Source of the DNA: Desulfobacteraceae bacterium
GTDB lineage: Bacteria; Desulfobacterota; Desulfobacteria; Desulfobacterales; SURF-7
Length of the DNA: 55,105 nucleotides
Direction: 5' to 3'
Assembly: GCA_003599865.1 (NCBI GenBank)
Contig: QZKS01000073.1
Span: 1 to 55,105, forward strand
Shown here: positions 7,294 to 42,719 of the stretch, piece after piece
How the letters are laid out: each line of letters begins with the position of its first letter
Numbering within the stretch: the stretch's first letter is position 1
Position numbers and translations under genes: made by a program
Notes under the pieces: model-generated
Told to the model about the DNA's origin: nothing
The model's input: the letters and a program-made list of their open reading frames with translations, nothing else
The model's database searches: none

Positions 7294-7318
7294 AACAAAA
7301 AAGCAGTGTCGACCGGAA

Positions 7319-8866: not shown

Positions 8867-8887
8867 AACAGCATTCATAAAAAAGAA

Positions 8888-12978: not shown

Positions 12979-12995
12979 TTGCTTTTGGCTTTTCA

Positions 12996-13254: not shown

Positions 13255-13316
13255 ATCAAAGAGTCAGATGTGGTTACCCGGATAGGCTTAAAAACTGCTA
13301 ACTGGGAGAATCCACG

Positions 13317-23903: not shown

Positions 23904-25448
23904 ATGACAAATGAAAATATTGGGATGATAAAGCCCGATCAGCTGATAGAAATTGCATTACGACGCCGATGGTTTTTAATTATCCCTTTCTGTATCGCCA
24001 TGATAGCCGGGATAGGTCTTGCGCTGTTTTTTCCCAAATCCTATGAAGCCAGCACCTTGATATTAATCGAAGTTCAACGTGTTCCAACAGATTATGTGCG
24101 ATCCATTGTATCCTCTGATCTTGATGCCAGAATCAATACCATATCCCAGCAGATTTTGAGCCGGACAAATCTGGAAAAAGTCATTACCCGATTGAATCTT
24201 TTCTCTGATGAAAAATATAAAAACATGCTGCTGACGGATAAGATTGAAATCATGCGTCGTAAAATTCAGATTAGTGTGACAAGGGGTGGGGGAGGACACG
24301 CCCGTGAACCCGACTCTTTCACTATTACTTATAGCGGAAAATCACCTGAGGATGTCATGAATGTGGTGAATACGTTGGCATCCCATTTTATTGATGAAAA
24401 TCTGAAGGTTCGTGAAGAACAGGCGTCCGGCACAAGCAGCTTCCTTGAAGGGGAGCTTTTTTCCATGAGGAAAAAACTTGAGGAAGTTGAAGAGACCATG
24501 AAGGATTATCGAAGAAAGTTCATGGGAGAGCTTCCGGAGCAGCTTGAAAGCAACTTAAGGATTCTGGACAGATTGCAGGAACAACAGCTTGACAGACAGA
24601 CCCGACTGAGTGATGCGAAAAACAGGCTTTCCATATTGACAAGCAATATCGCCTCTTCCCAGGTGTCCGCACTTGGCTCTTCAGAAGGTACAACGGATAT
24701 CAATCAGCTTAATGAGCAATTGAACGCGCTAATGACTAAATATACAGACCGCCATCCTGATGTAATCCGGTTGAAAAAAACCATCGCAAGCCTGAAGGCG
24801 AGAATGGATCAGGCAGAGGGGGGCGAGAAGGTTGTTGCCGGCACGATGTCACTTGCAGACAGACAGGCGCTGCTTGAAATCAATCAAGAGTTGAATTCTC
24901 TGAAAAATGAAATATCAGATCTTCAGTCGCAGATTAATCAGTATAAAATCCGTGTTGAGAATACACCAAAACGGGAGCAGGAGCTGATGAGCCTGCAACG
25001 CGACTATACCAACATACAAGAGTCCTATAGCTCTTTGTTGAGGCGGAAATTAGAAGCTGAAATCGCTGTGAATATGGAAAAGAAACAACAGGGGGAGCGT
25101 TTCCGGATCCTTGATTATGCACGGCTTCCGGAAAAGCCCGCCTCTCCGGATATGAGGAAGCTGTTTATAATTGTTACCGTGGCAGGGATAGGATTGGGAT
25201 GCGGGATCATTTTTTTGATGGAACATTTAGACACTTCATTCCGGCAATCTTCTCAAATCGAATCCTTCCTGGGAATTCCTGTAATCGCTGAAATACCGAG
25301 TATCCAGTATCCGGAAGATCTGTCAAGGGATCGAGTTCATCAGGCGGCAACCATTTTATTTCTGGTTATTTCCGGTTTGCTGTTTGTAGCTTTTTTATTC
25401 GTCACCATGATCGGAGTTGAACAACTTAAGCGAATTATGACTATTTAG
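23904..25448 (+). CDS. exosortase-system polysaccharide chain-length determinant (Wzz/GNVR family)
   Basis: The product is 514 aa. An N-terminal Wzz domain has a transmembrane helix at about residues 27-47, followed by a long periplasmic coiled-coil region (residues 150-370, with LEEVEETMKDYRRKF and LNEQLNALMTKYTDRHPDVIRLKKTIASLKA). The GNVR-type segment TPKREQELMSLQRDYTNIQESYSSLLRRKLEAEIA follows. A second membrane helix is near 425-447 after PEKPASPDMRK, and a third closes the protein. It sets polymer length together with the autokinase encoded next. The family is characteristic of exosortase-linked EPS loci. The ribosome site is weak. Confidence 0.9.
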   Translation: MTNENIGMIKPDQLIEIALRRRWFLIIPFCIAMIAGIGLALFFPKSYEASTLILIEVQRVPTDYVRSIVSSDLDARINTISQQILSRTNLEKVITRLNLFSDEKYKNMLLTDKIEIMRRKIQISVTRGGGGHAREPDSFTITYSGKSPEDVMNVVNTLASHFIDENLKVREEQASGTSSFLEGELFSMRKKLEEVEETMKDYRRKFMGELPEQLESNLRILDRLQEQQLDRQTRLSDAKNRLSILTSNIASSQVSALGSSEGTTDINQLNEQLNALMTKYTDRHPDVIRLKKTIASLKARMDQAEGGEKVVAGTMSLADRQALLEINQELNSLKNEISDLQSQINQYKIRVENTPKREQELMSLQRDYTNIQESYSSLLRRKLEAEIAVNMEKKQQGERFRILDYARLPEKPASPDMRKLFIIVTVAGIGLGCGIIFLMEHLDTSFRQSSQIESFLGIPVIAEIPSIQYPEDLSRDRVHQAATILFLVISGLLFVAFLFVTMIGVEQLKRIMTI

Positions 25449-25526
25449 TCGGAATAATGGCGCCTGTAAATCGACTGATTTACCTTTTATGAGTGTGCAT
25501 TAATCAGAGACAAAAGGGGAAACCTC

Positions 25527-26360
25527 TTGGGCAAAGTATTCGATGCATTAGAAAAGTCAAATCAAAAAATAAGTATAGAGCCTCTTGCATCTGATGAAAG
25601 GAAAAACCAGGACAGGGATGATTCTGCGCAGGTTGAAGGCAGGTCACAATCTAATACTGCTCGGTTTGATAAGAGCCTGGTTACGATTCTGGAGCCGCAT
25701 TCTTTTGAGTCGGAACAGTTTAAAATTTTAAGAGCAAACATTCTATTTCCGACATCAGGCAAACCGCCGAGAATGATCATGGTTACCAGCGCCGTACCAG
25801 GGGAGGGAAAGTCTTTTGTCGCTTCAAACCTTGCCATCAGCATTGCACAAAACATTGATGAACATGTACTGTTGATGGATTGTGATTTGCGTCTGCCATC
25901 CATACATAATCGGTTTCATTTTGAATCAAAAACCGGATTAAGCGATTATTTAACCGGCGATGTTCCTCTTTCTTCCCTATTGGTTAAAGTCGGGGTTGAC
26001 AAGCTTTCCATTCTTCCCGGAGGAAAGCCTCCTGCAAACCCTGCTGAGCTGCTTTCCTCTGAAAAGATGACACAGCTTTTGGAAGAGGTGAAGCTACGGT
26101 ATGAAGACCGCTACATTATTATTGATTCTGCGCCTCCGCAGTTGACTGCTGAATCCAGCGCCCTGGCAAGGCAGGTTGATGGAATAGTTCTTGTGATTAA
26201 CTATGGGAAAACAAAACGGGAATTAATATCAGATCTTATTGAAATATTAGGGAAAGAAAAAATAATAGGGATCGTTTTTAACCGCTTCAACCTGCGGTCA
26301 TCCACCTATTATGGCTATGGTAAATACAGCCATTATGGGAAATATTACGGTACGAAATAG
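25527..26360 (+). CDS. exosortase-system tyrosine autokinase (BY-kinase, Wzc cytoplasmic-domain type)
   Basis: The product is 277 aa from a TTG start, supported by AAGGGGA six bases upstream. It has the BY-kinase Walker A TSAVPGEGKS (87-96), Walker A' LLMDCDLRLPS (115-125) and Walker B IIIDSAPP. The C-terminus is a tyrosine cluster, YYGYGKYSHYGKYYG, the usual autophosphorylation tail. The start MGKVFDALEKS is typical of the exosortase-locus subfamily. It works with the membrane chain-length protein immediately upstream, phosphorylating its own tail in cycles that control polymer assembly and export. Confidence 0.93.
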   Translation: MGKVFDALEKSNQKISIEPLASDERKNQDRDDSAQVEGRSQSNTARFDKSLVTILEPHSFESEQFKILRANILFPTSGKPPRMIMVTSAVPGEGKSFVASNLAISIAQNIDEHVLLMDCDLRLPSIHNRFHFESKTGLSDYLTGDVPLSSLLVKVGVDKLSILPGGKPPANPAELLSSEKMTQLLEEVKLRYEDRYIIIDSAPPQLTAESSALARQVDGIVLVINYGKTKRELISDLIEILGKEKIIGIVFNRFNLRSSTYYGYGKYSHYGKYYGTK

Positions 26361-26428
26361 CGGAGTGAGTAAACGTAATCATTGGTGGTATCAACAAAGG
26401 ATTAAGGTGAGTTACAAAAAGAAATGAT

Positions 26429-27823
26429 ATGCTTAGAATATTTAAACAATATTACCCAATACGAAATATTTTTTTTGTAATTGGTGAATTTATATTAATT
26501 TCAGCTTCCGTCCTGCTGGCTACCTGGATTATTCTTGATAACGATGCTATTATTCCATCTTCCGGATTATATTCAAAAATTCTGTTAATAACAATCACCT
26601 ATCAAATCTGTTTTTATTATAATGATCTTTATGATTTAAAAATTACTGATAGTTATTCGGAGTTGAGTACCCGGTTGCTTCAATCGATTGGTGCTGCCTC
26701 TATTCTTCTCGCCGGTGTTTATTTTGCTTTTCCCCAGGTCATTATCGGGCGGAATATTTTTATCGTCAGCGTTATTTTTGCACCCTTATTAATCATATTA
26801 TGGCGATTTTTCTATGCAATCATTTTACAAAAAGGATTATTCAACCAAAAAATTATTCTCCTTGGGTCAAGCGAACTTGCAAGGGATATAATCAAGGAAA
26901 TTAATGAAAAGAAAGATAGCGGATATGAGATTTCGATAGTTGTTGAAGAAGATGGAAATGAATTTCTAATTCCCTATATCGACCATAGCAAAGTTAGACA
27001 TAGAAAAAAATATGATGGTCTTTATGATATTGCCAAAGAGTTTAACATTAATAAAATTGTTGTCGCAATTAAACAGAGAAGAGGCGCTTTCCCTGCAAGA
27101 GAATTGCTGGATTGCCGAGTAAGGGGAATCGATATTATTAAAGGCAATACCTTTTATGAAATGTTGACCGGAAAACTGATTGTCGATCAGATCAATCCTG
27201 ACTGGTTAATTTTTTCCAGAGGGTTTCGAATTCCCAGAAGGGTTCGAATTGCAAAACGAATCATTGATATCCTGGTGTCTCTGGTAATGCTCATTGCGTT
27301 GGCACCATTAATTGCTCTTGTCTCCCTATTGATCAAAATCGATTCAAAAGGTCCGATCTTTTTTTCACAGGAGAGGGTGGGGGAGAAGCGGAATATTTTT
27401 AAAATTCATAAATTCAGATCCATGGTAGAAAATGCGGAGAAAAAAACCGGCCCCATTTGGTCAATGGATAATGATGATCGTATCACAAGAGTCGGGAGAA
27501 TCATACGCAAGCTCAGGATTGATGAAATACCCCAGTTGTGGAATGTGTTGAAAAGTGAAATGAGTTTTGTCGGGCCAAGGCCTGAGCGGGAATTCTTTGT
27601 CAAAGAACTGGAGGAAAAAATACCCTACTACGGCGAAAGGTTCATCGTAAAACCGGGGATTACCGGTTGGGCCCAGGTCAGTTACGGATATGGCGCATCA
27701 GTGGATGATGCGATCGAGAAATTGAATTATGATCTGTTTTACACAAAGAACTTTTCGATTTTTATGGATCTGATGATCATTGCGCGTACTGTTAAAATTG
27801 TCTTGTTTGGCAAGGGCCGATAA
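26429..27823 (+). CDS. initiating sugar-1-phosphate transferase (polyprenyl-phosphate; exosortase locus type)
   Basis: The product is 464 aa. The N-terminal half has four membrane helices and a CoA-binding-like Rossmann region (KIILLGSSELARDIIKEI). The C-terminal bacterial sugar transferase domain begins with a fifth helix at KRIIDILVSLVMLIALAPLIAL and contains FFSQERVGEKRNIFKIHKFRSM, KLRIDEIPQLWNVLKSEMSFVGPRPE and KPGITGWAQVSYGYGAS. It loads the first sugar phosphate onto undecaprenyl phosphate. The layout matches the EpsB-type transferase of exosortase loci. A repeat-derived hairpin follows the gene. Confidence 0.93.
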   Translation: MLRIFKQYYPIRNIFFVIGEFILISASVLLATWIILDNDAIIPSSGLYSKILLITITYQICFYYNDLYDLKITDSYSELSTRLLQSIGAASILLAGVYFAFPQVIIGRNIFIVSVIFAPLLIILWRFFYAIILQKGLFNQKIILLGSSELARDIIKEINEKKDSGYEISIVVEEDGNEFLIPYIDHSKVRHRKKYDGLYDIAKEFNINKIVVAIKQRRGAFPARELLDCRVRGIDIIKGNTFYEMLTGKLIVDQINPDWLIFSRGFRIPRRVRIAKRIIDILVSLVMLIALAPLIALVSLLIKIDSKGPIFFSQERVGEKRNIFKIHKFRSMVENAEKKTGPIWSMDNDDRITRVGRIIRKLRIDEIPQLWNVLKSEMSFVGPRPEREFFVKELEEKIPYYGERFIVKPGITGWAQVSYGYGASVDDAIEKLNYDLFYTKNFSIFMDLMIIARTVKIVLFGKGR

Positions 27824-27847
27824 TTTCAAGGCCTCACTGGATCGTAG

Positions 27848-27946
27848 TGAACTCATGAAAAGTCTGCGTTTTTCTTTTTTGTTATGCCGGGCTTGGTTCG
27901 GAATCGTACCATTGCAAAAGGCCGGATTCTGAATCAAGCCCGGCAT
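27848..27946. repeat. decayed copy of the 8733 inverted-repeat element
   Basis: The left end TGAACTCATGAAAAGTC closely matches the left end of the element at 8733 (TGAACTCGTAAAAAGTC). It is followed by a long imperfect hairpin with arms ATGCCGGGCTTGGTTC (27884-27899) and GAATCAAGCCCGGCAT (27931-27946), 15 of 16 bases pairing. The right terminal repeat is not recognisable. The hairpin sits 25 bases or more after the sugar transferase stop and could also lower read-through. Confidence 0.7.
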
Positions 27947-28018
27947 GACGGTTTTACAGAGGCATTCCTTTTTTTAAATTGTAAACGACAGGGCGGAGCT
28001 GTACATTCAGGTTCTCGG

Positions 28019-28024
28019 TATAAT
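28019..28024 (+). promoter_or_regulatory. possible -10 element before the export gene
   Basis: A perfect TATAAT lies 31 bases before the ATG at 28055. No convincing -35 is found at 16-18 bases upstream, so this is a weak promoter call. A local promoter would make sense because a repeat hairpin separates this gene from the upstream EPS genes. Confidence 0.35.
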
Positions 28025-28054
28025 AGAAACAAATATACAAAAAGGAAATAACCA

Positions 28055-28675
28055 ATGAATATAAAAACCAATAAAAATCTCTATTATATTTATCTGTTTT
28101 GGATGGCCATTCTCATTTCTCCGCATGCCTCTTTTTGCCAAGAATCAGAACTAAAAGACAAAGGTAATGATACCTTATTTGCGGAGATAAAGGATTATGC
28201 AATCGGCAGCGGTGATGTATTGGATATTATCACCTGGAAAGAAGCAGATTTTTCACGTGAAGAGCTTTTTGTAAGGATCGACGGTAAAGTTACATTTCCG
28301 CTGCTTGGTGACATTCAGGCAGCCGGCAGAACGCCACAACAACTGAAAGAAGATATTGAAAGGCAGTTGAAAACATATGTCGGATCGCCGGTTGTTACGG
28401 TTACCGTCAGGGTTCCGGGGAGCCAGAAATTTTATATTCTTGGAGAGGTTGTACGCACAGGGGAGTATAACCTTGTCAAACATCTCACCATTATCCAGGC
28501 ATTTGCCCTTGCCGGAGGTTTCACGGAATGGGCTTCAAAAGATGAAATCATTCTGTTCCGTGTTGAAGAAGGGAAGGAAAAAATTATTCGGGTTAATTAT
28601 AAAAAAATACTCAAAGGAGATGATTTCAATAACAATATTTTCATCAAGGCAAACGATACCATCATTGTGCCCTAA
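28055..28675 (+). CDS. polysaccharide export protein (Wza-like, poly-export plus SLBB)
   Basis: The product is 206 aa. A signal peptide (about residues 1-29, ending SFCQE) has a Cys but no good lipobox. The poly-export domain starts YAIGSGDVLDIITWKE and contains VRIDGKVTFPLLGDIQAAGRTPQQLKEDIE. One SLBB domain follows (FYILGEVVRTGEYNLVKHLTIIQAFALAGGFTEWAS). It is shorter than Wza (about 380 aa) and lacks the C-terminal outer-membrane helix, so it would need a separate outer-membrane channel. The beta-barrel gene directly downstream is the obvious candidate. Confidence 0.9.
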   Translation: MNIKTNKNLYYIYLFWMAILISPHASFCQESELKDKGNDTLFAEIKDYAIGSGDVLDIITWKEADFSREELFVRIDGKVTFPLLGDIQAAGRTPQQLKEDIERQLKTYVGSPVVTVTVRVPGSQKFYILGEVVRTGEYNLVKHLTIIQAFALAGGFTEWASKDEIILFRVEEGKEKIIRVNYKKILKGDDFNNNIFIKANDTIIVP

Positions 28676-28699
28676 ACAATCGGCGGTTTTTAAATCGGT

Positions 28700-30181
28700 A
28701 TGAATCATTCCGGGTTTATATTCAAAAGAACGATAATCAGTCTTGCTTTTATTTTTTTATGCCAACCTATAGTCATTCAGGCAGAAGCAGCTGTCATTAC
28801 CTTCCTTCCCAGACTCTCCGTAGAAGAGGAATACACCAGTAATTTTTTCCTTACAAGAGATCGGGAGGAAGATGACTTCTCTACCATTGTCACTCCCGGA
28901 TTTGTCACTCAACTGCAAGGCAAGATGAGCAGCATCGCATTTTATTATGATCCCGCTTATCATTATTATTCCGATCATACAGAATATAACGGATGGTCTC
29001 ATAGCGCCGGTTTAACCGGTACGCATCGGGCAGCAAAAAATACAACAATCGATTTTGTTAATTCTTTTCTGTATACTTCAGAACCATCCGTCACACCGAA
29101 TACTGTTGCGACGTACATGGGGGAATCTTCCACAACAGAAAGTTCAGTGACCAGACCCGCACCATCTTTTGATTCAGGTCCCACGCACATATCCGGAAGT
29201 AGTGGTGCAACCTCTTCTTTTGACTCTATCGGAAGTCAGGACACACAGATTTTAAACAGGGATATTTCACTGCGCAGGTCCCGGGAGACGTACTACACCA
29301 ATAATGCCAATCTGGGCTTAACCCGTCAGTTTGGTATCAATGATTCAATGCATCTCGATTATACATACACCATATTGGAAAATGATGATCCCGGGATTGA
29401 CGATAATCAAAGCCATAGCCCTTCCATTCTCTTTTCCTACTGGTTTGTTCCCAATCAATGGCGGGTTGAAACCGGCGGAGCATATACCAGAGGATTATAC
29501 GATGGGCTTTCAGATGATTTCAACAGCTGGCAGGCTGATGTTGAAATTTTCAGACAATTTGATCGCCATATCGAAGGATTGATCCGTTATAGCCATTCTT
29601 CCATATCGTTTGACGGGGATACGGAGGATTACCAGGTTTACAATCCATCCATCGGTATTCGATATATTACACAGGAAGGAACGAATATTCATGTGAGTGT
29701 AGGGTACTATGTCCAGGATCGGAAAATCAGTGAAGATGACTCCGGTTTTATCGTCAATTGTGATCTTGAAAAATCATGGAGTTACAGACAGGCATCCATT
29801 CAGCTTAGCGGTTCAAGCGGTTATGATCTCTCTTATCTTGATGCGGCCAACCTTGGATTCAGGCTATATTATGGCGCCGGCATCAACGCTCAATATCGTT
29901 TTACAAGACATACAACCGGGTATCTTTTTTCTTCTTATCAATGGGACGACTATCCGTCTGATCCTTCTTCTGCAGGGGAGGATAGGGAAGATCATAACCT
30001 GGAATATGGTCTTGGCTTTTCCTACCGGGCGTTGTCATGGCTATCGACAAGAATTCAGGGTTCTACCCGATTGGTAAAATCATCAATACATGTAAGCGAT
30101 CCTGATGATGATCCGGATTTTGTGGATAATCGGGTTTTACTTGGAATTACTATTTCACCTTCACAACCATACCGATATTAA
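28700..30181 (+). CDS. outer-membrane beta-barrel protein of the exopolysaccharide locus
   Basis: The product is 493 aa. A signal peptide (cleavage near VIQAEA) is followed by ITFLPRLSVEEEYTSNFFLTRDREEDDFSTIVTPGF, a start typical of the large barrel found in exosortase EPS loci. The rest is alternating strands with aromatic girdles, ending PSQPYRY. Residues about 130-190 form a low-complexity Ser/Thr loop. It probably forms the outer-membrane exit for the polymer, working with the short export protein encoded 24 bases upstream. Family assignment rests on context and pattern rather than a catalytic motif. Confidence 0.8.
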   Translation: MNHSGFIFKRTIISLAFIFLCQPIVIQAEAAVITFLPRLSVEEEYTSNFFLTRDREEDDFSTIVTPGFVTQLQGKMSSIAFYYDPAYHYYSDHTEYNGWSHSAGLTGTHRAAKNTTIDFVNSFLYTSEPSVTPNTVATYMGESSTTESSVTRPAPSFDSGPTHISGSSGATSSFDSIGSQDTQILNRDISLRRSRETYYTNNANLGLTRQFGINDSMHLDYTYTILENDDPGIDDNQSHSPSILFSYWFVPNQWRVETGGAYTRGLYDGLSDDFNSWQADVEIFRQFDRHIEGLIRYSHSSISFDGDTEDYQVYNPSIGIRYITQEGTNIHVSVGYYVQDRKISEDDSGFIVNCDLEKSWSYRQASIQLSGSSGYDLSYLDAANLGFRLYYGAGINAQYRFTRHTTGYLFSSYQWDDYPSDPSSAGEDREDHNLEYGLGFSYRALSWLSTRIQGSTRLVKSSIHVSDPDDDPDFVDNRVLLGITISPSQPYRY

Positions 30182-30189
30182 TAATTGCC

Positions 30190-32166
30190 ATGTGCGGAAT
30201 AGCAGGAATCATCAATTTTAATCAAGCGGAAGAAAAGCAGGACCTTCTTGGGCGAATGATCGGGATGATCCGTCACAGGGGGCCTGATTCGGCTGGTATT
30301 TATCTGAACGGCCCGGCCGGTCTTGGTCATGCAAGATTGAGCATTATCGATTTGCAGACCGGCGATCAGCCCATCCATAATGAGGATCGAACCGTCTGGG
30401 TGATATTCAACGGAGAGATCTTTAATTATCCTGAGCTGAGAAAGGACCTGATCGACCGGGGGCATCATTTTTATACCCATTCCGATACGGAAATCCTTGT
30501 CCATCTGTATGAAGAAGATGGCCCTGAAATGTTTTCAAAACTCAATGGTCAGTTCGCCATTGCGTTATGGGACAAGACAAAGCAGGGACTGCTTCTTGCC
30601 CGTGATCGGGTCGGGATTCGTCCGCTTTTTTATCATCATGAACAGGGACGGCTGGTGTTCGGCTCTGAAATCAAGGCCGTTTTCGCGGATGAAACCATTC
30701 CCCGAAAGCTCGACCCGCAAACCATTGCCGATATTTTTACATGCTGGACACCGATAGGTGTATCAACGCCATTTCAGGGTATTTTCCAGGTTCGTCCCGG
30801 GCACTATGCGCTTTTTTCCAAAAATGGTTTTCTGGAAAAATCCTACTGGCATCTTCCATATTCATCCCTGGAGCCGAAAAGCCGTCCGCTGGAAGAATGG
30901 GTTGATGAACTCAATGTGCTTGTTAAGGATGCTACCAGAATACGGCTTCGGGCAGACGTTCCGGTTGGCGCATATCTCAGCGGCGGCATAGACAGCACCT
31001 ACATTAGTTCTCTTGTGAGAAATTTTTTTAACAATCGCCTGTCAACATTTTCCGTGAGTTTTGCCGATGAACGTTTTAATGAATGTTCCTATCAGGAAAT
31101 TGCAGTCAATGCACTGCAAACAAAACATCATGTGATCAATTGTCAAGATGAGGACATCGGAAATATCTTCCCCCGGGTGATCTGGCACACGGAAACGCCG
31201 ATTATCAGAACAGCACCGGCGCCACTTTATCTGTTATCGGGTCTGGTTCGCAAAAATGATTTTAAGGTTGTTTTAACCGGTGAGGGTGCGGATGAGATTT
31301 TTGCCGGTTACAATATTTTCAAGGAGGATAAGGTCCGGCGTTTCTGGGCCCGTAATCCGGATTCAAAAATACGATTCAGACTGCTTGAAAAACTTTATCC
31401 GTATATCTTTACAAAGGAAAATGAAAAGGCAGGCAAGTTTTTAACCGGGTTTTTTAAAAAAGGACTTCATCAGACGGATTCGCCGGTATACTCCCATATA
31501 TTGAGATGGCAGAATACATCCCAGACCAAAACGTTTTTCCATCCGGACTTCATTGCCGGTACAGGGGATCTGGAACAGTTTGTGAGTCGTTTTGCATCGA
31601 CGCTTCCCCATGATTTCATGAACTGGAAACCCTTGTCACGGGCACAATTTATTGAGAATACGGTTTTTATGTCCAACTACCTGTTGTCTTCCCAGGGAGA
31701 CCGCATGGCCATGGCAAATTCAATTGAAGGACGATATCCGTTTTTGGATTATCGTGTCATTGAATTCGCATGCCGTGTTCCTGTAAAATTCCGAATGAAC
31801 GGGCTGGAAGAAAAATACATCCTGAAGAAAGCGGCAAAGGGCCTGATTCCGGAAGCACTTATCAAAAGGGTCAAACAGCCGTATCGAGCCCCCATCAGTT
31901 CTTGTTTTTTCAGGAAGCCTTCCCCGGCCTATGTTTCGACAATGTTATCCGAACATGCCATTCAAAAGAACGGATATTTTGATGAAAAAAAAGTAGCCGG
32001 TCTGGTGAAAAAGAGCAGCGGCCAAAATGGAATGCTTCTCAGCGAACGGGAGAATATGGCACTGGCAGGTATACTTTCAACCCAGCTGCTGGACCATTTG
32101 TTTATCAGCAATTTTTCTCAACAGGCACCATACCCGAATGAGGATATGGTCATATTTACGGATTGA
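30190..32166 (+). CDS. asparagine-synthetase-type amidotransferase, exosortase-associated
   Basis: The product is 658 aa. The N-terminal class II glutaminase begins MCGIAGIINF, with Cys2 as nucleophile, and has RHRGPDSAGIY and GHARLSIIDL. The synthetase domain has the PP-loop YLSGGIDSTYISSLV near residue 260 and VLTGEGADEIFAGY near 360. The C-terminus SSQGDRMAMANSIEGRYPFLDYRVIEFACRVP is typical of the exosortase-system branch. It probably transfers glutamine-derived ammonia to a carboxyl group on a sugar or carrier-bound acid rather than making free asparagine. It starts nine bases after the barrel gene, so it is in the same transcription unit. Confidence 0.92.
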   Translation: MCGIAGIINFNQAEEKQDLLGRMIGMIRHRGPDSAGIYLNGPAGLGHARLSIIDLQTGDQPIHNEDRTVWVIFNGEIFNYPELRKDLIDRGHHFYTHSDTEILVHLYEEDGPEMFSKLNGQFAIALWDKTKQGLLLARDRVGIRPLFYHHEQGRLVFGSEIKAVFADETIPRKLDPQTIADIFTCWTPIGVSTPFQGIFQVRPGHYALFSKNGFLEKSYWHLPYSSLEPKSRPLEEWVDELNVLVKDATRIRLRADVPVGAYLSGGIDSTYISSLVRNFFNNRLSTFSVSFADERFNECSYQEIAVNALQTKHHVINCQDEDIGNIFPRVIWHTETPIIRTAPAPLYLLSGLVRKNDFKVVLTGEGADEIFAGYNIFKEDKVRRFWARNPDSKIRFRLLEKLYPYIFTKENEKAGKFLTGFFKKGLHQTDSPVYSHILRWQNTSQTKTFFHPDFIAGTGDLEQFVSRFASTLPHDFMNWKPLSRAQFIENTVFMSNYLLSSQGDRMAMANSIEGRYPFLDYRVIEFACRVPVKFRMNGLEEKYILKKAAKGLIPEALIKRVKQPYRAPISSCFFRKPSPAYVSTMLSEHAIQKNGYFDEKKVAGLVKKSSGQNGMLLSERENMALAGILSTQLLDHLFISNFSQQAPYPNEDMVIFTD

Positions 32167-32239
32167 TTATTTTTTGGAAATCGACAGGTTTGAATATTTT
32201 GTGAGTCCTTGATTGACCACAGGAAAGGGAATCCATTCA

Positions 32240-33226
32240 ATGGGAATAATATTTTCTTCAGATGTTCTAAGGCTTGATGCAGAACAGGAAGTTGGAAAAA
32301 TTTCAGAGCGGCTGAAACAGATCATGACAAAACAACTGAAAAGAAGAGGGCTGGTTGTCGGCCTTTCCGGAGGAATTGACAGCAGCGTGACCGCTGCGCT
32401 GGCGGTAAATGCCCTTGGATCTGATCGTGTTCTGGCCCTGCAAATGCCGGAGCGTCATTCTGCGGAAGAGACATTGCAGTTGAGCGGCATGGTTGCGGAT
32501 CATTTCGGCATTGAAAAAATTCATGAAGATATCACGGGTATTCTGGAAGCGGTCGGCTGCTACACACGATATGATGAAGCTGTTCGTAAGGTGATTCCGG
32601 AGTATGGAGAGGGATGGAAATCAAAAATTGTCATTCCCAGCGTTCTTGAAACCAGGGGGTTCAGCCTGTTTTCCGTTGTAGCGGAAAGTCCGGACAGAAA
32701 TTTGGTCAAAGAAAGACTTCCCTTAAAAGCGTATCTTGAAATTGTAGCGGCAACCAATTTCAAGCAAAGAATTCGGAAAATGCTGGAATATTATCATGCC
32801 GACCGGCTCAATTATGCGGTTTCCGGCACTCCGAACCGCCTTGAGTATGATCAGGGTTTTTTTGTGAAACTGGGCGATGGCGCTGCGGATGTAAAACCCA
32901 TAGCACATCTGTATAAATCTCAGGTTTATCAGCTTGCCGAATATCTGGGAGTTCCAGCCGGGATCCGTAAAAGACCACCGACTACCGACACATATTCATT
33001 GGCACAAGGGCAGGATGAGTTCTACTTTTCCCTGTCCTACGATAAAATGGACCTGTGCCTGTATGGGAAAAATAATCATATTGCAACAAAAGAAGTGGGA
33101 AAGGTTTTAAATTTGGCGCCCGAACAGGTGCAGCGGGTATATGACGATATCGACACCAAAAGATTGACAACCCGATATCTTCACCTGCCGGGTATTTTGA
33201 TTGATCCTGTTTCTGAAATTCAATAG
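32240..33226 (+). CDS. NadE-like ATP-dependent amide synthetase
   Basis: The product is 328 aa from the ATG at 32240, supported by GGGA nine bases upstream; a TTG at 32213 is less likely. The adenylation P-loop is GLSGGIDSSVTAALA (about 40-54). The NAD synthetase marks KLGDGAADVKPIAHLYKSQVYQLAEYLGVP and IRKRPPT are present. Compared with NadE (about 275 aa) it has about 50 extra residues in the middle, and the usual TDEEELG segment is replaced by AQGQDEFYFSLSYDKM. It may still make NAD, but its place between an amidotransferase and an ACP suggests a role in amidating an EPS building block. Confidence 0.8.
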   Translation: MGIIFSSDVLRLDAEQEVGKISERLKQIMTKQLKRRGLVVGLSGGIDSSVTAALAVNALGSDRVLALQMPERHSAEETLQLSGMVADHFGIEKIHEDITGILEAVGCYTRYDEAVRKVIPEYGEGWKSKIVIPSVLETRGFSLFSVVAESPDRNLVKERLPLKAYLEIVAATNFKQRIRKMLEYYHADRLNYAVSGTPNRLEYDQGFFVKLGDGAADVKPIAHLYKSQVYQLAEYLGVPAGIRKRPPTTDTYSLAQGQDEFYFSLSYDKMDLCLYGKNNHIATKEVGKVLNLAPEQVQRVYDDIDTKRLTTRYLHLPGILIDPVSEIQ

Positions 33227-33257
33227 CATTCTTTATTCGGGTAAGAAGAGGTTTGTG

Positions 33258-33512
33258 ATGAGTGATACAAAAGAAAAAGTACGAACGTTTATTGTAGAAA
33301 ATTTTATGTTCGGCAATGATGAAGGCCTTTCCGATGATACTTCTTTTCTGGAAGAGGGCATAATAGACTCCACCGGTGTTCTGGAATTAGTTGATTTCCT
33401 GGAGCAAACATTCTCCATTAAGGTGGATGATGAAGAATTGATTCCGGAAAATCTGGATTCCATAAAAAATCTTATTGTATATCTTTCTAAAAAGCTTCAA
33501 CGAGCAGCATGA
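33258..33512 (+). CDS. acyl carrier protein of the exopolysaccharide locus
   Basis: The product is 84 aa from the ATG at 33258 (MSDTKEKV). The attachment Ser is in EEGIIDSTGVLELVDFLEQTF, a DSxGxLE form typical of stand-alone carriers for AMP-ligases rather than the FAS carrier (DSLD). It overlaps the AMP-ligase gene by ATGA, so the two are a functional pair: the ligase adenylates an acid and loads it on this carrier. Confidence 0.92.
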   Translation: MSDTKEKVRTFIVENFMFGNDEGLSDDTSFLEEGIIDSTGVLELVDFLEQTFSIKVDDEELIPENLDSIKNLIVYLSKKLQRAA

Positions 33513-35071
33513 ATGAAAAAACAGAAAATCTGATTCACCACTTCCTTGAGCGGAGCTGCCGGGATTTCCCGGACAAAACAGCACTGGTTCATGAAGACGT
33601 TCGTGCAACCTATTCGGATATCAATGTTTCGGCAGACCATTTGGCTTGCTGGTTCCTTGAACAGAAGGTGTTAAAAGGGGAACGGGTTGCTCTGATCATG
33701 GAAAATGGTCTGGAGTATGTTGTCGGTTACTACGCTGCTTTAAAAGCCGGCCTTGTGGTTGCACCTCTCAGTTATGAATTGAAACCGGATGGCTTGCGGC
33801 CATTGCTGAAAGAACTGGAACCTTCCCTGCTTATTGTTTCAACAAGGTGTGAACGGGTTGTTCATGCAACGAACCTGGAAGACCTCGGAATAAAAGCCAT
33901 TATTATCAACAAGCCAAAACTTGACTGGCGTGCTTTCAAAATAGCCGTTTACTCGTGGGAAGATGTTTCATATGGCCAATGTGATGAAACCGCACCTGCT
34001 CTCGAAATCCAGGAAACCGATCTTGCGAGTATAATTTATACCTCCGGCTCAACAGGCAGATCCAAGGGAGTGATGCTGTCCCATGAAAATATCGTATCCA
34101 ATACCGACTCGATCTGCCGGTATTTATGCCTCGGTAAGGATGACATCCAGATGGTTGTGCTGCCATTTTTTTATGTCATGGGAAAATCATTATTGAATAC
34201 CCATTTTGCTGTTGGCGGAACAGTGGTCATCAACAATAAATTTGCCTTTCCGGCGGATGTCATCAAACAGATGGCAGAAGAAAATGTTACCGGCTTTTCC
34301 GGAGTACCGTCGACGTATGCCTATCTTCTGAATCGATCACCTTTGGCGGCAAGCAAAGACAAGCTTGCATGTTTACGGTATTGTACACAAGCCGGTGGGC
34401 ACATGTCCCGGCAGCTGAAAAAGGAACTGCGTCTGGCCTTACCGGAGGAAACTCGGATTTACATCATGTATGGAGCCACAGAAGCTTCGGCAAGGCTGAC
34501 CTATCTTGCACCTGAAAGCTTTGAACGGAAAATGGATTCCATTGGAAAGGCAATTCCGGGTGTTACACTGCGGATTCTTGATGAACAGGGCGCAGAGGTA
34601 CCTCAGGGAGAAGTCGGCGAGCTTGTAGCAGATGGCATCAACATTATGAGGGGGTATTGGAGAGATCCGGAGACAACAAAAAAAGTCCTGGATCAATCAG
34701 GATATCATACCGGAGACCTTTGTTATCAGGATGAAGAAGGATTTTACTTTCTAAAAGGCAGGAGAGATCATCTTCTGAAGGTTGGTGGACACAGGATTAA
34801 TCCGCAGGAAATCGAAGATGTACTCATGGAGACCGGGCTTCTTGTGGAAGCAGCAGTAATTGGAATAGAAGACAGATTCCTGGGACACAAGCCGGCAGCC
34901 TTCGTAACACCCAAGGATGATGGGGTGAATGAAAGCCGGCTTATTGAAATATGCAGCATGAAATTGCCGAAATACAAATGGCCTTCGATGATTCGACTGG
35001 TAAGGTCCATTCCCAAAAACGCAAACGGGAAAATCGATAATGCCCGTCTGCTTGAACTACTTACAGAATAG
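33509..35071 (+). CDS. AMP-dependent acyl ligase, exosortase-associated
   Basis: The product is 520 aa, an ANL-superfamily enzyme. The P-loop IIYTSGSTGRSKGVMLSH is near residues 175-192, YGATEASARLTYL near 325, GYHTGDLCYQDEEGFYFLKGRRDHLLKVGGHRINPQEIE near 400-440, and the catalytic Lys is in PKNANGKID near the C-terminus. It activates a carboxylic acid with ATP and, by its coupling to the carrier gene, passes it to that carrier's phosphopantetheine. The acid is unknown. Confidence 0.92.
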   Translation: MNEKTENLIHHFLERSCRDFPDKTALVHEDVRATYSDINVSADHLACWFLEQKVLKGERVALIMENGLEYVVGYYAALKAGLVVAPLSYELKPDGLRPLLKELEPSLLIVSTRCERVVHATNLEDLGIKAIIINKPKLDWRAFKIAVYSWEDVSYGQCDETAPALEIQETDLASIIYTSGSTGRSKGVMLSHENIVSNTDSICRYLCLGKDDIQMVVLPFFYVMGKSLLNTHFAVGGTVVINNKFAFPADVIKQMAEENVTGFSGVPSTYAYLLNRSPLAASKDKLACLRYCTQAGGHMSRQLKKELRLALPEETRIYIMYGATEASARLTYLAPESFERKMDSIGKAIPGVTLRILDEQGAEVPQGEVGELVADGINIMRGYWRDPETTKKVLDQSGYHTGDLCYQDEEGFYFLKGRRDHLLKVGGHRINPQEIEDVLMETGLLVEAAVIGIEDRFLGHKPAAFVTPKDDGVNESRLIEICSMKLPKYKWPSMIRLVRSIPKNANGKIDNARLLELLTE

Positions 35072-35158: not shown

Positions 35159-35818
35159 TTGTATACCAAATCAGTGGTCAGAACCCTTGTCGCCTCTGCT
35201 TTGATCGGTTTAACAGCAGCGTACCTTACTTTTGCAAATCATGGTGAAAAGATTTCTCCCAGAAAACCTTTTTCCACATTTCCAAAGCAAATCGGTCAAT
35301 GGAAAGGAAAGGAAAGTTTTTTTGATAAACAAATTTATGATGTATTAGGTGTAGATGACTCTGTATTGGTACGTTATGAAAATCAAGAGGGCGATCCGGT
35401 AGAATTATATGTCGGTTTTTATGAAAGCCAGCGGGAAGGAGATATTATCCACTCGCCAAGGAATTGTATGCCCGGTGCAGGGTGGTCGATTATCAATTCA
35501 TCAATTGAGAAATTGAGCCTCAATGGAAAACAGCAGAAACACATCGAAGTCATTAAATTGACTATATCTAAAAATTCTCAGCAGCAAGTGGTATTATACT
35601 GGTTTCAATCCCGGGGAAGATATATCAGCTCAGAATATTTCCAGAAATTTTATTTGATTTGGGATTCTATTTTGAAGAATCGAACAGATGGATCTTTTGT
35701 CCGGCTGATCAGCCCGGTCAGTCATAATGACATGGATTATACTACAGCGTATTTAAAAAAATTCGCTGTAGAAATCATACCGATACTCAATGAATATATT
35801 CCGGGAGCTGAAGAATGA
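35159..35818 (+). CDS. EpsI-family exosortase-associated protein
   Basis: The product is 219 aa from a TTG at 35159 after an AAGGGG-type site. One N-terminal hydrophobic segment (residues about 8-25) anchors it. The EpsI domain shows FPKQIGQWKGKE, LYVGFYESQREGDIIHSPRNCMPGAGW and LYWFQSRGRYISSEYFQKFYLIWDS, all family hallmarks. EpsI is often fused to the C-terminus of exosortase; here it is a separate gene placed before it and overlapping it by four bases. Its biochemical role is not established; it is needed for or associated with EPS assembly in studied loci. Confidence 0.92.
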   Translation: MYTKSVVRTLVASALIGLTAAYLTFANHGEKISPRKPFSTFPKQIGQWKGKESFFDKQIYDVLGVDDSVLVRYENQEGDPVELYVGFYESQREGDIIHSPRNCMPGAGWSIINSSIEKLSLNGKQQKHIEVIKLTISKNSQQQVVLYWFQSRGRYISSEYFQKFYLIWDSILKNRTDGSFVRLISPVSHNDMDYTTAYLKKFAVEIIPILNEYIPGAEE

Positions 35819-36642
35819 CGATTTCAAGATCACAATTGAATATTGTATTGTCCGCAGTTGTTTTTTTATCGGCCTTTGGAATTCTTTATCACGATGTTAT
35901 CCGTAAAATGATTTCCATATGGCTGAGTGACGACAATTATTCACATGGATTTTTTATCCCCGTTGTTTCAGCCTATTTGATCTGGAATAATTATCAAAAT
36001 TTGACCAAAGCAAAGTTTGCACCGGCAAATTCAGGACTATTGCTTCTCTGCGGCAGCCTGTTGTTTTACATACTTGCCAATATCGGCGCTGAGCTTTTTT
36101 CTATGCGTTTTTCCATGATCATGGTTCTTCTGAGCACATCTGTTTTTGTTTTCGGATGGTTCCTGACACGGGAAATTTTTTTGCCGGTGTTGTATTTGCT
36201 TTTTATGATGCCTTTTCCTGCCATCATTTGGGACAAAATAGCTTTTCCGCTGAAATTGTTTACCACCAATATTGCCGTTACGGTTATTCAGTTGACCGGA
36301 ATACCGGTATATGGTGAAGGAAACATCATCCATCTGTCAAATACTACTCTGGAGGTTGTTGATGCCTGTTCCGGCCTTAGATCTCTCATATCTTTACTTG
36401 CTTTGAGTGCGGCCTTTGCATTGATATCCGATCTTATAAAATGGAAAAAATTACTGCTTTTTCTTTCAGCCGTTCCTATAGCCGTTGCACTGAATATTGT
36501 CCGCTTAACAGTAACTGCCATCTTGGCTCAGTTTTATGGTTCTCAGGTCGCAGACGGCTTTTTGCATGATATATCCGGAATTCTGGTTTTTATGATCGCT
36601 TTGTCTTTATTATTGCTGGAATACCGGTTACTGACCAAATGA
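35815..36642 (+). CDS. exosortase (transpeptidase-like membrane protease)
   Basis: The product is 275 aa with about eight membrane helices. The catalytic triad of the family is visible: Cys185 in VVDACSGLRS, Arg230 in ALNIVRLTVT and His251 in GFLHDISGILVF. The DDNYSHGFFIPVVSAYLIW motif at 39-57 is also typical. Exosortases recognise a C-terminal PEP-type signal on secreted proteins, cleave it, and are thought to attach the protein to a surface glycan. The gene is coupled to EpsI by an ATGA overlap. No substrate with such a C-terminal signal is encoded in this window. I cannot assign an exosortase subtype. Confidence 0.93.
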   Translation: MTISRSQLNIVLSAVVFLSAFGILYHDVIRKMISIWLSDDNYSHGFFIPVVSAYLIWNNYQNLTKAKFAPANSGLLLLCGSLLFYILANIGAELFSMRFSMIMVLLSTSVFVFGWFLTREIFLPVLYLLFMMPFPAIIWDKIAFPLKLFTTNIAVTVIQLTGIPVYGEGNIIHLSNTTLEVVDACSGLRSLISLLALSAAFALISDLIKWKKLLLFLSAVPIAVALNIVRLTVTAILAQFYGSQVADGFLHDISGILVFMIALSLLLLEYRLLTK

Positions 36643-36669: not shown

Positions 36670-37524
36670 ATGAAAAAAAAAATCTTTCTTTTCAGTTGGT
36701 TTTTGGCAGCTGTTTTGTTGATGATAATCGGTTGCTCAGGAGAAAGCAATGATATGACGAAAAATGAAGTCCATGTTTATGGAAGTATAAAAGAAGTACC
36801 TGACACAGAATGGGAAAAGTTATCCAAAAAAACAATTTTTTTCGGTCACCAATCGGTCGGTTTCAATATTATTGACGGTATGCAGGACATCATCAAGGAG
36901 TATCCCCGGATAAAGTTGACTTTTTCCACGCTGGATAAAAAGGATGGTGTTAAACAGGAAGGGCTTTTCGTTCACTCGGAAATCGGTAAAAACAGGGACC
37001 CTGTTTCGAAAATTAATGATTTTGCCTCTATAATGAATAATGCAAAGGGAAAGAAGTTCGATATCGTTTTTTTGAAATTGTGCTTTATAGATATAGACGA
37101 TCAGACAAATATTCATCAACTGTTACAGCATTATAACAAAACAATGGAAAGTCTGAAATCATCATTTCCGAAAACAAAATTTATCCATTTGACTGTCCCT
37201 TTGTCTTACAGCAAAACCACATGGAAAACGTGGCTAAAAAAAATAGTGGGAAAAAAGAAGATTTGGGAATATGACGATAATATTCGGAAAAACGAATACA
37301 ATGATTTGTTGAGACAATACTATGCTGCAAAAGAACCACTATTTGATCTTGCGACGATTGAATCCACTCTTCCGGATGGAACAAGGTCGGTTTTTAAAAG
37401 CAACGGGAATACATATCATCAGTTGGCGCCTGATTACACATTTGATGAAGGACATTTGAATGATATCGGTCGCAGAATTGTAGCAGAACAATTGTTGTTA
37501 TTTCTGGTAAACAATCAACCATAG
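36670..37524 (+). CDS. SGNH-hydrolase-like lipoprotein
   Basis: The product is 284 aa. A signal with lipobox MIIGC makes Cys22 the likely lipidated residue. The first block is FFGHQSVGFNIIDGM (57-71), where Ser62 stands in the place of the GDS serine. The last block, DEGHLNDIGRRIVAEQLL, holds Asp259 and His262 in the DxxH arrangement of SGNH hydrolases. Blocks II and III (Gly and Asn) are not clear. It may add or remove acyl groups from the polymer in the periplasm or at the outer membrane. It lies 27 bases after the exosortase gene. Confidence in the fold is moderate. Confidence 0.65.
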   Translation: MKKKIFLFSWFLAAVLLMIIGCSGESNDMTKNEVHVYGSIKEVPDTEWEKLSKKTIFFGHQSVGFNIIDGMQDIIKEYPRIKLTFSTLDKKDGVKQEGLFVHSEIGKNRDPVSKINDFASIMNNAKGKKFDIVFLKLCFIDIDDQTNIHQLLQHYNKTMESLKSSFPKTKFIHLTVPLSYSKTTWKTWLKKIVGKKKIWEYDDNIRKNEYNDLLRQYYAAKEPLFDLATIESTLPDGTRSVFKSNGNTYHQLAPDYTFDEGHLNDIGRRIVAEQLLLFLVNNQP

Positions 37525-39019: not shown

Positions 39020-40129
39020 ATGATTCAAAAAATTATCAACACTTTTGTGTGGGTACCCGATTATTTAAAAAAATATCTGGAAAGACGAACTATATATACC
39101 GCTGAATCAGACAGACCGATAAACATATTTTTTTGTATATGCGATCATTTTGAGCCATATTGGAATCATGCTGACGCGAGAACAGCCCGGATTCGAATCA
39201 ACAGATGGCTGGATTCCTACCCGGTAATCAGCGAAAGATATTTGGACTCCAGTGGGAAACGATTGAAATATTCCTTCTTTTATCCTGAGGAAGAATATAC
39301 TCATGAAGACCTGAACGTCCTTGCCGGTTTCTGCCATGCCGGATATGGTGAGGTTGAAATTCATCTTCATCATGACAATGATACATCTGAAAATTTAAAA
39401 AAGACCCTTCTGGATTATAAATCAAGATTATATGAAGATCACGGCCTTCTTTCTATTGATAAAACTTCCGGCGGGATATCTTATGGATTCATTCACGGCA
39501 ACTGGGCTCTGGACAATTCAAGGCCTGACGGACGGTTGTGCGGAGTCAACGATGAGTTGGATATCTTGCAGCAAACCGGTTGCTACGCTGATTTTACAAT
39601 GCCATCTGCACCGGATGTTACTCAGATCAAAAAAGTTAACAGTATATACTATACCGTTGACGATCCGATTCGACCGAAATCTCATGAAACAGGTGATGAT
39701 CTTGAAATCGGCAGAAAAGGAAAGGGACTTTTAATGGTACAGGGGCCCATTTCACTGAACTGGAAAAACAGATCCTTCGGAATTCTGCCTAGGGTAGAAA
39801 ATGGCGGATTGATGGAAAACAATCCGCCCACAGCTTCAAGAATACATTCGTGGATCGATCAGCGCATTCACATTAAAGGTTTTCCATATGGTATTTTTGT
39901 CAAAATATATACGCATGGTACTCAGGAGAAGAATATGAAGATGTTGTTCCAGGATAACTATCTGGAGTTTCTTCTGGAATATTTGTCTTCGTTGGCAAGA
40001 AATAATAAAAAATACAATATCTATTTTACAAGCGCTAGAGAAATGACCAATATCATCCATGCTATTATGGATGGGAAAACTGACAATTTCGACGACTACC
40101 GGGACTATCGATATCATATTGCGAAATGA
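39020..40129 (+). CDS. NodB-like (polysaccharide-deacetylase-fold) protein of the exopolysaccharide locus
   Basis: The product is 369 aa with no signal peptide. The N-terminal part has FFCICDHFEPYW (Asp42, His43), and EVEIHLHHDND (112-121) supplies a histidine cluster. Later come GFIHGNWALDNSRPDG and IYTHGTQEKN. This order of Asp then His-rich motifs resembles CE4 deacetylases, but the canonical HxxxH spacing is not clear, so the enzyme class is uncertain. If it is one, it would be cytoplasmic and act on a precursor. It sits between a GT2 gene and the flippase gene. Confidence 0.5.
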   Translation: MIQKIINTFVWVPDYLKKYLERRTIYTAESDRPINIFFCICDHFEPYWNHADARTARIRINRWLDSYPVISERYLDSSGKRLKYSFFYPEEEYTHEDLNVLAGFCHAGYGEVEIHLHHDNDTSENLKKTLLDYKSRLYEDHGLLSIDKTSGGISYGFIHGNWALDNSRPDGRLCGVNDELDILQQTGCYADFTMPSAPDVTQIKKVNSIYYTVDDPIRPKSHETGDDLEIGRKGKGLLMVQGPISLNWKNRSFGILPRVENGGLMENNPPTASRIHSWIDQRIHIKGFPYGIFVKIYTHGTQEKNMKMLFQDNYLEFLLEYLSSLARNNKKYNIYFTSAREMTNIIHAIMDGKTDNFDDYRDYRYHIAK

Positions 40130-41660: not shown

Positions 41661-42719
41661 ATGGCATATGAACTTATTGAGTTTGACAAGGTAAAAGATA
41701 AAAACCGGATCATTCCGATATGGAAAGAAGCAATGGGGAGTCATCTGGACAGACGTTATGAGTGGATCTATAATACATTGCCGTTAACCAGACCAACAAC
41801 CGTCCTCTTAAAAAATATCGAATCGAACCGCATTGTCGGGTGTGGTTCCATACTGCAGAAAATTTTTTTCATCGACAATAAGCCCTTTACCGTTGGAATC
41901 TGTGTTGATTTTTTTGTAAATGCCGAACATCGTACACTGGGACCGGCCGTTATGATTCAGCGATGGATTACCAGTTTATTGCAAGCATACCCCATAGATT
42001 TTCTGTTCGCGTTTCCAAACCAAATGGCTCTCAGCGCATTTATCCGGGTTGGCTATAAAAAACTTGGCACAGTGGAAACTTTTGTAAAATTATTAAAAGC
42101 GGAAGAAAAATTGAAACAATATGTCAAATACAGTTTTTTATCAAAAATCATTGCCTTCCCTGTAAACAAGATAGAGTGGATAGTTGATTATTTTCGACTT
42201 CTGGCTGTGGGGAAAAAATATACAGCAGAGATTTGCCATGAACCCGATGATCGTTTTAATACACTTATCAGCAGCACAATCAACCGTTCTCCTATTTTTT
42301 TAGAAAAAAACAGGGAGATATTAAAATGGAGATTTTCGGATACTCCGGGCACTGACAACAAATTTTTTTGCCTGACCGACATCTCAACAGGAAAACTGGC
42401 AGGATACCTTGTGTATTCTATTGAAAACAGGGTCGCATACATCCAGGACCTTTTATTACAGGATATGGATGCAGATCTGAAACCGTTGATATTATTTTTT
42501 TCCAAAGAGATGAGAAAGGAAGAAAATGTCAATTCAATCCGGATCTGCTATATTGGCAATTCTCATATATTGAAAAATCTGAAGGAGTTGTTTTTTGTAA
42601 AAAGAACAAACGATCGCTATTGCCTGGTGTATACCAGAAAGGACATGCCGGAAGATGTAAAGAATACCATTTTTTCACTTGATAAATGGTTCCTGCTCGA
42701 AGGAGATATGGATATTTAA
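41661..42719 (+). CDS. GNAT-like acyltransferase
   Basis: The product is 352 aa. The first 150 residues read as a GNAT domain: IVGCGSILQKIFFIDNKPFTVGICVDFFVNAEHRTLGPAVMIQRWI carries the strand and acetyl-CoA loop (HRTLGPA replaces the usual RxxGxG/A). SAFIRVGYKKLGT follows as in GNATs. A second half (residues 190-350) may be another degenerate GNAT copy. No signal peptide. It may acylate a nucleotide sugar or a lipid-linked sugar. The donor and acceptor are unknown. Confidence 0.65.
   Translation: MAYELIEFDKVKDKNRIIPIWKEAMGSHLDRRYEWIYNTLPLTRPTTVLLKNIESNRIVGCGSILQKIFFIDNKPFTVGICVDFFVNAEHRTLGPAVMIQRWITSLLQAYPIDFLFAFPNQMALSAFIRVGYKKLGTVETFVKLLKAEEKLKQYVKYSFLSKIIAFPVNKIEWIVDYFRLLAVGKKYTAEICHEPDDRFNTLISSTINRSPIFLEKNREILKWRFSDTPGTDNKFFCLTDISTGKLAGYLVYSIENRVAYIQDLLLQDMDADLKPLILFFSKEMRKEENVNSIRICYIGNSHILKNLKELFFVKRTNDRYCLVYTRKDMPEDVKNTIFSLDKWFLLEGDMDI

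Follow-up and report, generated by a model that had tools for sequence, protein, structure and literature searches.

PP-loop synthetases of the NadE and AsnB types make an adenylate that ammonia then attacks, and adenosine monophosphate (AMP)-forming ligases make acyl-adenylates that they hand over to the thiol of a carrier. In Dlt D-alanylation, an AMP-ligase and a small carrier are found together with an MBOAT acyltransferase and an SGNH-fold companion. Here we analysed a 55,105-nucleotide contig of a Desulfobacteraceae bacterium (GenBank assembly GCA_003599865.1, QZKS01000073.1), referred to in its whole length as the window, in which four adjacent genes encode an AsnB-type glutamine amidotransferase, a NadE-like PP-loop protein, an acyl carrier protein (ACP) and an AMP-forming acyl ligase. 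We consider it rather probable that the four genes constitute one module, in which the NadE-like protein would be an adenosine triphosphate (ATP) pyrophosphatase adding ammonia within the ACP-ligase pathway, and not to deamido-NAD (NAD, nicotinamide adenine dinucleotide).

The module shares features with several described systems. The NadE-like protein has the fold, the PP-loop and the ATP-side residues of NadE, but it differs in a central addition, in its set of fixed residues on the substrate side and in its gene being tied to those of an ACP and a ligase in a genome with another NadE. It is a member of NF002048 (PRK00876), a family labelled NAD(+) synthase, and the gene neighbourhoods do not bear out this label. 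Like Dlt, the module has an AMP-ligase, a small carrier and an SGNH-fold companion, to which it adds two amidating enzymes. Compared with the XrtA (exosortase A) system, TIGR03098 and TIGR03108 are the best or second-best models for the window ligase and AsnB, respectively, and an exosortase and EpsI follow, but both proteins score under the cut-offs (367.3 of 592.35 bits and 417.5 of 816.9 bits). N-acetyl sugar amidotransferases (NASATs; WbuX/WbpG; TIGR03573, PDB 8wex), whose relatives occupy the place of the NadE-like protein beside ACP and ligase in other loci, are thought to join ammonia to the N-acetyl group of a sugar, and NASAT and the NadE chain 3fiu superimpose at the ATP site (PMC10607449); both PP-loop enzymes would be expected to add ammonia after ATP activation (PMC10607449). 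Among the matches listed from open-licence papers, none dealt with a NadE-like gene together with an ACP and a ligase or with an exosortase, and neither the module nor the exchange of its PP-loop partner was met there.

Conserved linkage of the NadE-like gene to carrier, ligase and amidotransferase genes

The initial annotation had read these genes as an amidotransferase, a NadE-like protein, an ACP and an AMP-ligase acting as one chemical module. All four are present on the + strand (Table 1), and the conservation of their neighbourhood supports a common function. A scan of a species-genome collection yielded 515 stretches encoding a NadE-like relative, the best 80 of which were kept as loci; these are the closest relatives, many of them on contigs of metagenome-assembled genomes (MAGs), and the counts made on them do not survey the whole family. 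When 1147 selected frames from the 80 loci were clustered, the most widespread families were the ligase (66 loci), AsnB (60) and the ACP (58), followed by a family present in 22. Close neighbours, meaning genes no more than 4 kb from the NadE-like gene, were counted in the 47 loci having at least 4 kb on both sides, and the other 33 of the 80, with a shorter flank, were dropped. The ACP and ligase occur together in 40 of these 47 loci, the ligase in 43, AsnB in 38 and all three in 34; the 13 loci without the full trio are L010, L014, L018, L020, L022, L026, L043, L055, L060, L067, L076, L083 and L084. The gene order is variable (AsnB-ligase-NadE-ACP 12 times, AsnB-NadE-ACP-ligase 11 times, plus others), and 119 of 124 neighbouring module genes lie on the same strand as the NadE-like gene.

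For comparison, we took 20 regions of 6.5–8.8 kb, each surrounding an ordinary nadE gene in a genome with a NadE-like gene as well. They were hand-picked from the 47 genomes with another NadE, mostly from high-scoring rows, and three of their genomes (G411, G414 and G416) have a stand-alone NadE-like gene. None of the 20 regions holds an ACP, a ligase or an AsnB gene. Fisher's exact test on 40/47 against 0/20 gives p = 1.5e-11, uncorrected for kinship, and the linkage of the NadE-like gene to the ACP and ligase is beyond chance.

The organism labels of the loci include Thermodesulfobacteriota, Verrucomicrobiota, Planctomycetota, Fibrobacterota, Spirochaetota and Acidobacteriota, with Geomonas among the named loci as a culturable carrier. 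The nearest named loci, judged by the NadE-like protein, are MAGs labelled Desulfosudis oleivorans (87% identity) and Desulfobacterium sp. (88%). The NadE-like genes with an ACP and a ligase nearby do not group as one clade, this label needing 20 changes on the tree, but contig ends and short flanks account for part of the missing neighbours.

Proximity to the ACP and ligase is also kept by a divergent branch of the family. A match above the NF002048 cut-off was found in 22 of 395 genomes of the phylum, and 13 of these 22 form a divergent set with scores of 350–403 bits and 37–41% identity to the window protein (five aligned). Twelve of the 13 divergent loci were fetched with wide flanks; the ACP is nearby in eight of them (L137–L144), seven of which also have the ligase. 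The five other loci with wide flanks all have the ACP and AsnB in the fetched stretch; the ligase accompanies them in L147, L148, L149 and L152 and is absent from L151. As a separate observation, each branch contributes one NF002048 protein to locus L085, which also encodes AsnB, a ligase and two carriers.

A second NadE in the genome

The NadE-like protein is a member of NF002048 by score (508.7 bits, cut-off 313) and also lies above the threshold of TIGR00552 (161.3 bits, cut-off 63.65). It had initially been suggested that this protein may have left NAD synthesis, unless it turned out to be the only nadE of the genome. The genome of about 5.0 Mb, of which the window is contig C34, encodes a second NadE of 280 amino acids on contig C80 (TIGR00552, 104.2 bits), next to a gene reading like dihydrofolate reductase, which excludes the NadE-like protein as the sole NadE. 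Another NadE above the TIGR00552 cut-off is present in 47 of the 50 genomes carrying a NadE-like gene. In the window's genome and 29 relatives, 28 have a NadE above the cut-off without the NF002048 pattern, G449 being marginal (64.8 bits). Because of the second NadE here and in 47 of 50 genomes, the window protein has most likely left housekeeping NAD synthesis and is unlikely to be the NAD synthase that the cell needs; the suggested departure from NAD synthesis is very probable.

Structure and conserved residues of the NadE-like protein

The structure model of the NadE-like protein, built from 54 relatives, has a mean predicted local distance difference test (pLDDT) score of 91.5 and adopts the NadE fold. 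Its best structural matches are 3fiu, titled nicotinamide mononucleotide (NMN) synthetase (Z 29.0, root-mean-square deviation (r.m.s.d.) 2.5, 238 aligned), and 2e18 (Z 29.0, r.m.s.d. 3.3, 251 aligned). We aligned 103 family rows with 21 ordinary NadEs, excluding L109–L111, which are under the NF002048 cut-off. The PP-loop SGGIDS and residues T206, N208, E211, G215, G221, D222 and K235 are common to both groups, and as the ATP-side residues are kept, ATP activation should be intact. Other positions are fixed in the family and differ in most ordinary NadEs, namely Y117, K184, Y193, A196, F217, G223, D226, Y234, Q237, D259, T260, S262, E269, F270, F272, D312 and K316, and the C-terminal K-R pair of ordinary NadEs (20 and 19 of 21) is not retained. 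A central segment at about residues 113–175, containing three strands in the model, has little or no counterpart in the 21 ordinary NadEs. The extra central segment noticed in the initial annotation is real and amounts to about 60 residues, but it is a family-wide trait and not unique to the window protein, because the NF002048 model covers residues 13–334.

These comparisons bear on whether the NadE-like protein could simply be an ordinary NAD (or NMN) synthetase, the second of its genome, encoded along with the cluster. Its TIGR00552 score, the NadE fold and ATP site with the NMN synthetase 3fiu on top, and the few genomes that have no other NadE above the cut-off would all be expected of such an enzyme. 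The fixed linkage to ACP and ligase, the other NadE in 47 of 50 genomes, the swap with a NASAT-like enzyme, and the family-specific fixed positions and added segment are hard to reconcile with it, and we regard this explanation as improbable.

A NASAT-like enzyme as exchange partner

A gene for a NASAT-like protein recurs beside ACP and ligase, not only in the divergent loci but also where a module lacks the NadE-like gene. The protein, of about 335 amino acids, has an SGGKDS motif and, across the 13 rows aligned (L203 excluded), four fixed cysteines; two rows score 146.1 and 147.9 bits with TIGR03573, under the cut-off of 203.2. The window NadE-like protein does not have the NASAT characteristics of a four-cysteine motif and a match to TIGR03573, which is absent from its 11 NCBIfam matches. 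At E ≤ 1e-60, the NASAT-like gene is found in 33 of the 395 genomes, and none is found in the window's genome. Within 4 kb of it, the 33 genomes have the ACP in 31 cases (three of these matches being weak, 25–37 bits), the ligase in 30, both in 29, AsnB in 14 and a NadE-like gene in eight, and 22 of the 33 have ACP and ligase with no NadE-like gene nearby. Only one of the 80 close-relative loci (L015) contains a NASAT-like gene.

The exchange is visible in two overlapping loci of one contig (L157 and L155), which encode export proteins, the NASAT-like protein, ACP, ligase, other proteins, EpsI, EpsH and an SGNH protein, with no match to AsnB. This is the order of the window with the NadE-like gene swapped for the NASAT-like gene and without AsnB. 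At least 18 changes of the partner label have to be assumed on a tree of 100 ligases; the well supported branches alone force six changes for the NadE-like and eight for the NASAT-like partner. The clade of the window's ligase comprises 45 rows (SH-aLRT, the Shimodaira–Hasegawa-like approximate likelihood ratio test, 100), with a NadE-like partner in 41 and a NASAT-like partner in four. The PP-loop partner of the module has changed repeatedly on the ligase tree. An hhalign comparison of the two partner families aligned 57 columns around the PP-loop only (probability 66.8%); the partner swap is therefore an exchange between families. As the NASAT-like enzyme holds the same place in sister modules, by analogy both enzymes probably perform equivalent nitrogen-adding steps there.

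Proposed role of the module

From the chemistry of its family, the ligase would adenylate an acid and pass it to the ACP. The NadE-like protein would act on a substrate of this ACP-ligase pathway instead of deamido-NAD, adenylating a carboxylate or a carbonyl oxygen so that ammonia displaces AMP and an amide or amidine results, and AsnB might use glutamine to add or supply another amide nitrogen. For the module of the window, the product could, speculatively, decorate an envelope polysaccharide or its precursor.

Extended to the family, this proposal becomes more tentative, and we put it forward as a possibility that still falls somewhat short of probable: NF002048 might mostly comprise not NAD synthases but distinct amide- or amidine-forming enzymes, acting on the product of an ACP-ligase pathway, exchangeable with the NASAT-like enzyme and distributed across many phyla. 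If so, the misleading NAD(+) synthase name would cover a class of envelope or secreted products bearing amide or amidine groups, and the label would miscredit the protein in metabolic models of many bacteria and hide a nitrogen-adding step. Two PP-loop enzymes in one place would also make the idea directly testable: were both to add nitrogen to a common acyl or sugar intermediate, the class of product (amide or amidine) could be read out.

Several observations weigh against the module as proposed here. TIGR00552 rates the NadE-like protein (161.3 bits) over the presumed housekeeping NadE on C80 (104.2 bits). Three of the 50 genomes, which may be incomplete, have no other NadE above the cut-off: the best match is 43.4 bits in G408 and 62.8 bits on a 691-amino-acid frame in G410, and G417 has none above the cut-off among those listed. 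Among the relatives of the window's genome, G447 (a fragment in a 160-amino-acid frame; genome 85% complete) and G461 (79% complete) likewise have no other NadE above the cut-off. An exopolysaccharide marker occurs anywhere in the fetched DNA in only 18 of the 47 loci, and 29 have none. The linkage counts of the NASAT-like gene stand without a control set of their own. Both PP-loop enzymes occur together in eight divergent loci, so that there is no simple replacement there, and they therefore probably catalyse different steps in those loci.

The same holds for NadE-like genes standing apart from the module. Four of the 12 divergent loci with wide flanks (L145, L146, L150 and L153) have neither an ACP nor a strong ligase match nearby; in three of these four cases, the genome itself (G230, G207 or G183) has an ACP and a ligase paired with a NASAT-like gene on another contig (L198, L199 and L196, respectively). 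In the thirteenth divergent genome, G033 (L106), of which only short flanks were available, neither ACP nor ligase is in view. Nine genomes have a module-free NadE-like gene; a ligase relative at E ≤ 1e-100 is present elsewhere in three of them, with 54% identity in G431, 44% in G426 and 42% in G417, and the other six have none at this threshold anywhere. L037, L042 and L044 represent a small clade of stand-alone NF002048 genes with shared neighbours of their own (clusters c41 and c42). Their genomes have no ligase relative at E ≤ 1e-100, and this clade is perhaps another use of the same enzyme.

The acid predicted to be loaded by the ligase and the nature of the product

The best NCBIfam model for the ligase is TIGR03098, and the ligase and ACP frames overlap by 4 bases. 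In the window ligase, Val223 is aligned with the Asp (235 position) that binds the amino group of the substrate in an adenylation domain of a nonribosomal peptide synthetase. Because Val replaces this Asp, an ordinary alpha-amino acid is not favoured as the substrate. The 235-aligned position in 76 module ligases is V in 46, D in 15, I in 8, C, G and S in 2 each and A in 1 (the ligase, ACP and AsnB alignments exclude L087–L116, which have short flanks), and the loaded acid may differ between modules. Reading the acid from ligase residues was given up, since this position is too variable among the 76 rows, and no acid was named. The initial interpretation holds in part: the four genes behave as one module and the NadE-like protein has very probably left NAD synthesis. 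The residue at position 223 disfavours an alpha-amino acid for the window's ligase.

The ACP has DST at its phosphopantetheine site, and since the genome contains two phosphopantetheinyl transferase matches, it can presumably be charged. Its nearest solved chains are peptidyl carriers, among them PigG (37 bits) and PltL. It has weak NCBIfam matches only; the best of these, all under cut-off, include carriers of ornithine-lipid and cispentacin pathways. This resemblance to natural-product carriers raises the alternative that the product of the module is an aminolipid or a secreted small molecule, such as an amidated acyl compound or an N-acyl amino acid, instead of a polymer substituent, with the NadE-like protein amidating that product. 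The 29 loci without an exopolysaccharide marker, a protein of the FabD-insert/nitronate-monooxygenase type near the module in L032, and the title of one reference, which ties N-acyl amino acid synthases to exosortase systems, are in line with it. As the window genes lie inside a polysaccharide and exosortase cluster, like those of several relatives, we judge a secreted product to be on the unlikely side.

Polysaccharide setting and the SGNH-fold companion

The genes upstream of the module (23904–30181) read as polysaccharide export and synthesis. Neighbours of the NadE-like gene at a distance of up to 4 kb include EpsH in seven of the 47 loci, EpsI in two and an SGNH gene in seven. With EpsH in only 7/47 and no exopolysaccharide marker in 29/47, the module was rejected as a general part of exosortase/exopolysaccharide clusters, and its exopolysaccharide link is local. 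The initial annotation had further proposed transfer of the acyl or amino-acyl group onto the polymer. Such a transfer stays speculative, as 29 loci have no marker in the fetched DNA and no transferase could be tied to the ACP.

The protein encoded at 36670–37524 has no Pfam or NCBIfam match, but its model (pLDDT 87.3) resembles SGNH esterases; after designed scaffolds, it matches 4ppy (Z 15.1, r.m.s.d. 3.2, 180 aligned) and OatA (5ufy, Z 13.1). Members of this SGNH-fold family occur in 14 of the 80 loci and accompany ACP-ligase modules with or without a NadE-like gene. A search of 148 genomes gave matches in 12, strong in five, and each of the five strong matches has an ACP-ligase module no more than about 10 kb away (close by in the window's genome, G122 and G038, about 7 kb away in G132 and about 8 kb in G071). 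Of 16 aligned rows, 13 have a lipobox-like Cys close to the N-terminus. The SGNH-fold protein might process the product within the envelope.

Such a companion brings Dlt to mind, and the module might work as Dlt does without being a member of that system: ligase and carrier would ready an acyl group, a membrane acyltransferase and the SGNH-fold protein would put it on an envelope polymer, and the amidating enzymes would tailor it. The recurrence of ligase, carrier and SGNH-fold protein together (SGNH in 14/80 loci and within about 10 kb in 5/5 strong-match genomes), OatA among the structural matches (Z 13.1) and an Acyl_transf_3 protein at 50778–51908 are consistent with this. Six MBOAT matches are present in the genome, on contigs C32, C33 and C61, and none is on the window's contig; there was also none among 10 scanned module neighbours from related loci, no wider search beside modules having been made. 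The ACP reaches 21.4 bits with the DltC family (NF003464), far under the cut-off of 68, and SGNH lies within 4 kb in only 7/47 loci. A Dlt-like function has therefore little to recommend it in our view, and an amidating module that serves an ACP-ligase pathway remains the preferred reading.

Gene organization and further observations

The coordinates of the module and its neighbours are compiled in Table 1. AsnB begins with the class II glutaminase start MCG, contains the PP-loop SGGIDS and scores 506.4 bits with TIGR01536 (cut-off 267.1). The listed frame of the NadE-like gene opens with TTG, and the ATG at 32240, which sits behind AGGAAAGGG, is the likelier start than the TTG at 32213. The ACP frame is nested in a listed open frame beginning at 33201.

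Table 1. Genes of the module and its immediate neighbours in the window
Feature	Coordinates	Strand	Evidence
AsnB-type glutamine amidotransferase, 658 amino acids	30190..32166	+	TIGR01536, PF00733, PF13537
NadE-like PP-loop protein, NF002048/PRK00876	32240..33226 (program frame from 32213)	+	profile match, model
Carrier protein (ACP/peptidyl carrier-like)	33258..33512	+	PF00550 25.9 bits (cut-off 20.8)
AMP-forming acyl ligase, inferred loader of ACP	33509..35071	+	PF00501 273 bits
EpsI, neighbour of module	35159..35818	+	TIGR02914 141.6 bits (cut-off 42.8)
Exosortase EpsH, neighbour of module	35815..36642	+	TIGR02602 215.3 bits (cut-off 105.55)
Predicted SGNH-fold lipoprotein	36670..37524	+	structure model; recurs with ACP-ligase modules

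EpsI and EpsH (35159–36642) are separate genes in the order EpsI-EpsH. The XrtD model TIGR04152 matches EpsI with its C-terminal part (193.4 bits) and EpsH with its N-terminal part (222.3 bits), of 400 bits, as if a fused XrtD exosortase had been split and reversed. Two further proteins have no Pfam or NCBIfam match: a 369-amino-acid protein (39020–40129) inside the polysaccharide cluster, and a 352-amino-acid protein (41661–42719), a relative of which (166 bits) is encoded downstream of a NadE-free module in L154. At some distance from the module, 6274–14606 reads as a biotin cluster with bioB, bioF, bioD and bioA, named from their translations. It encloses genes for a short-chain dehydrogenase, a carrier protein, a nitroreductase-family protein and a ketosynthase (Pfam), which are perhaps a dedicated pimelate-building set.

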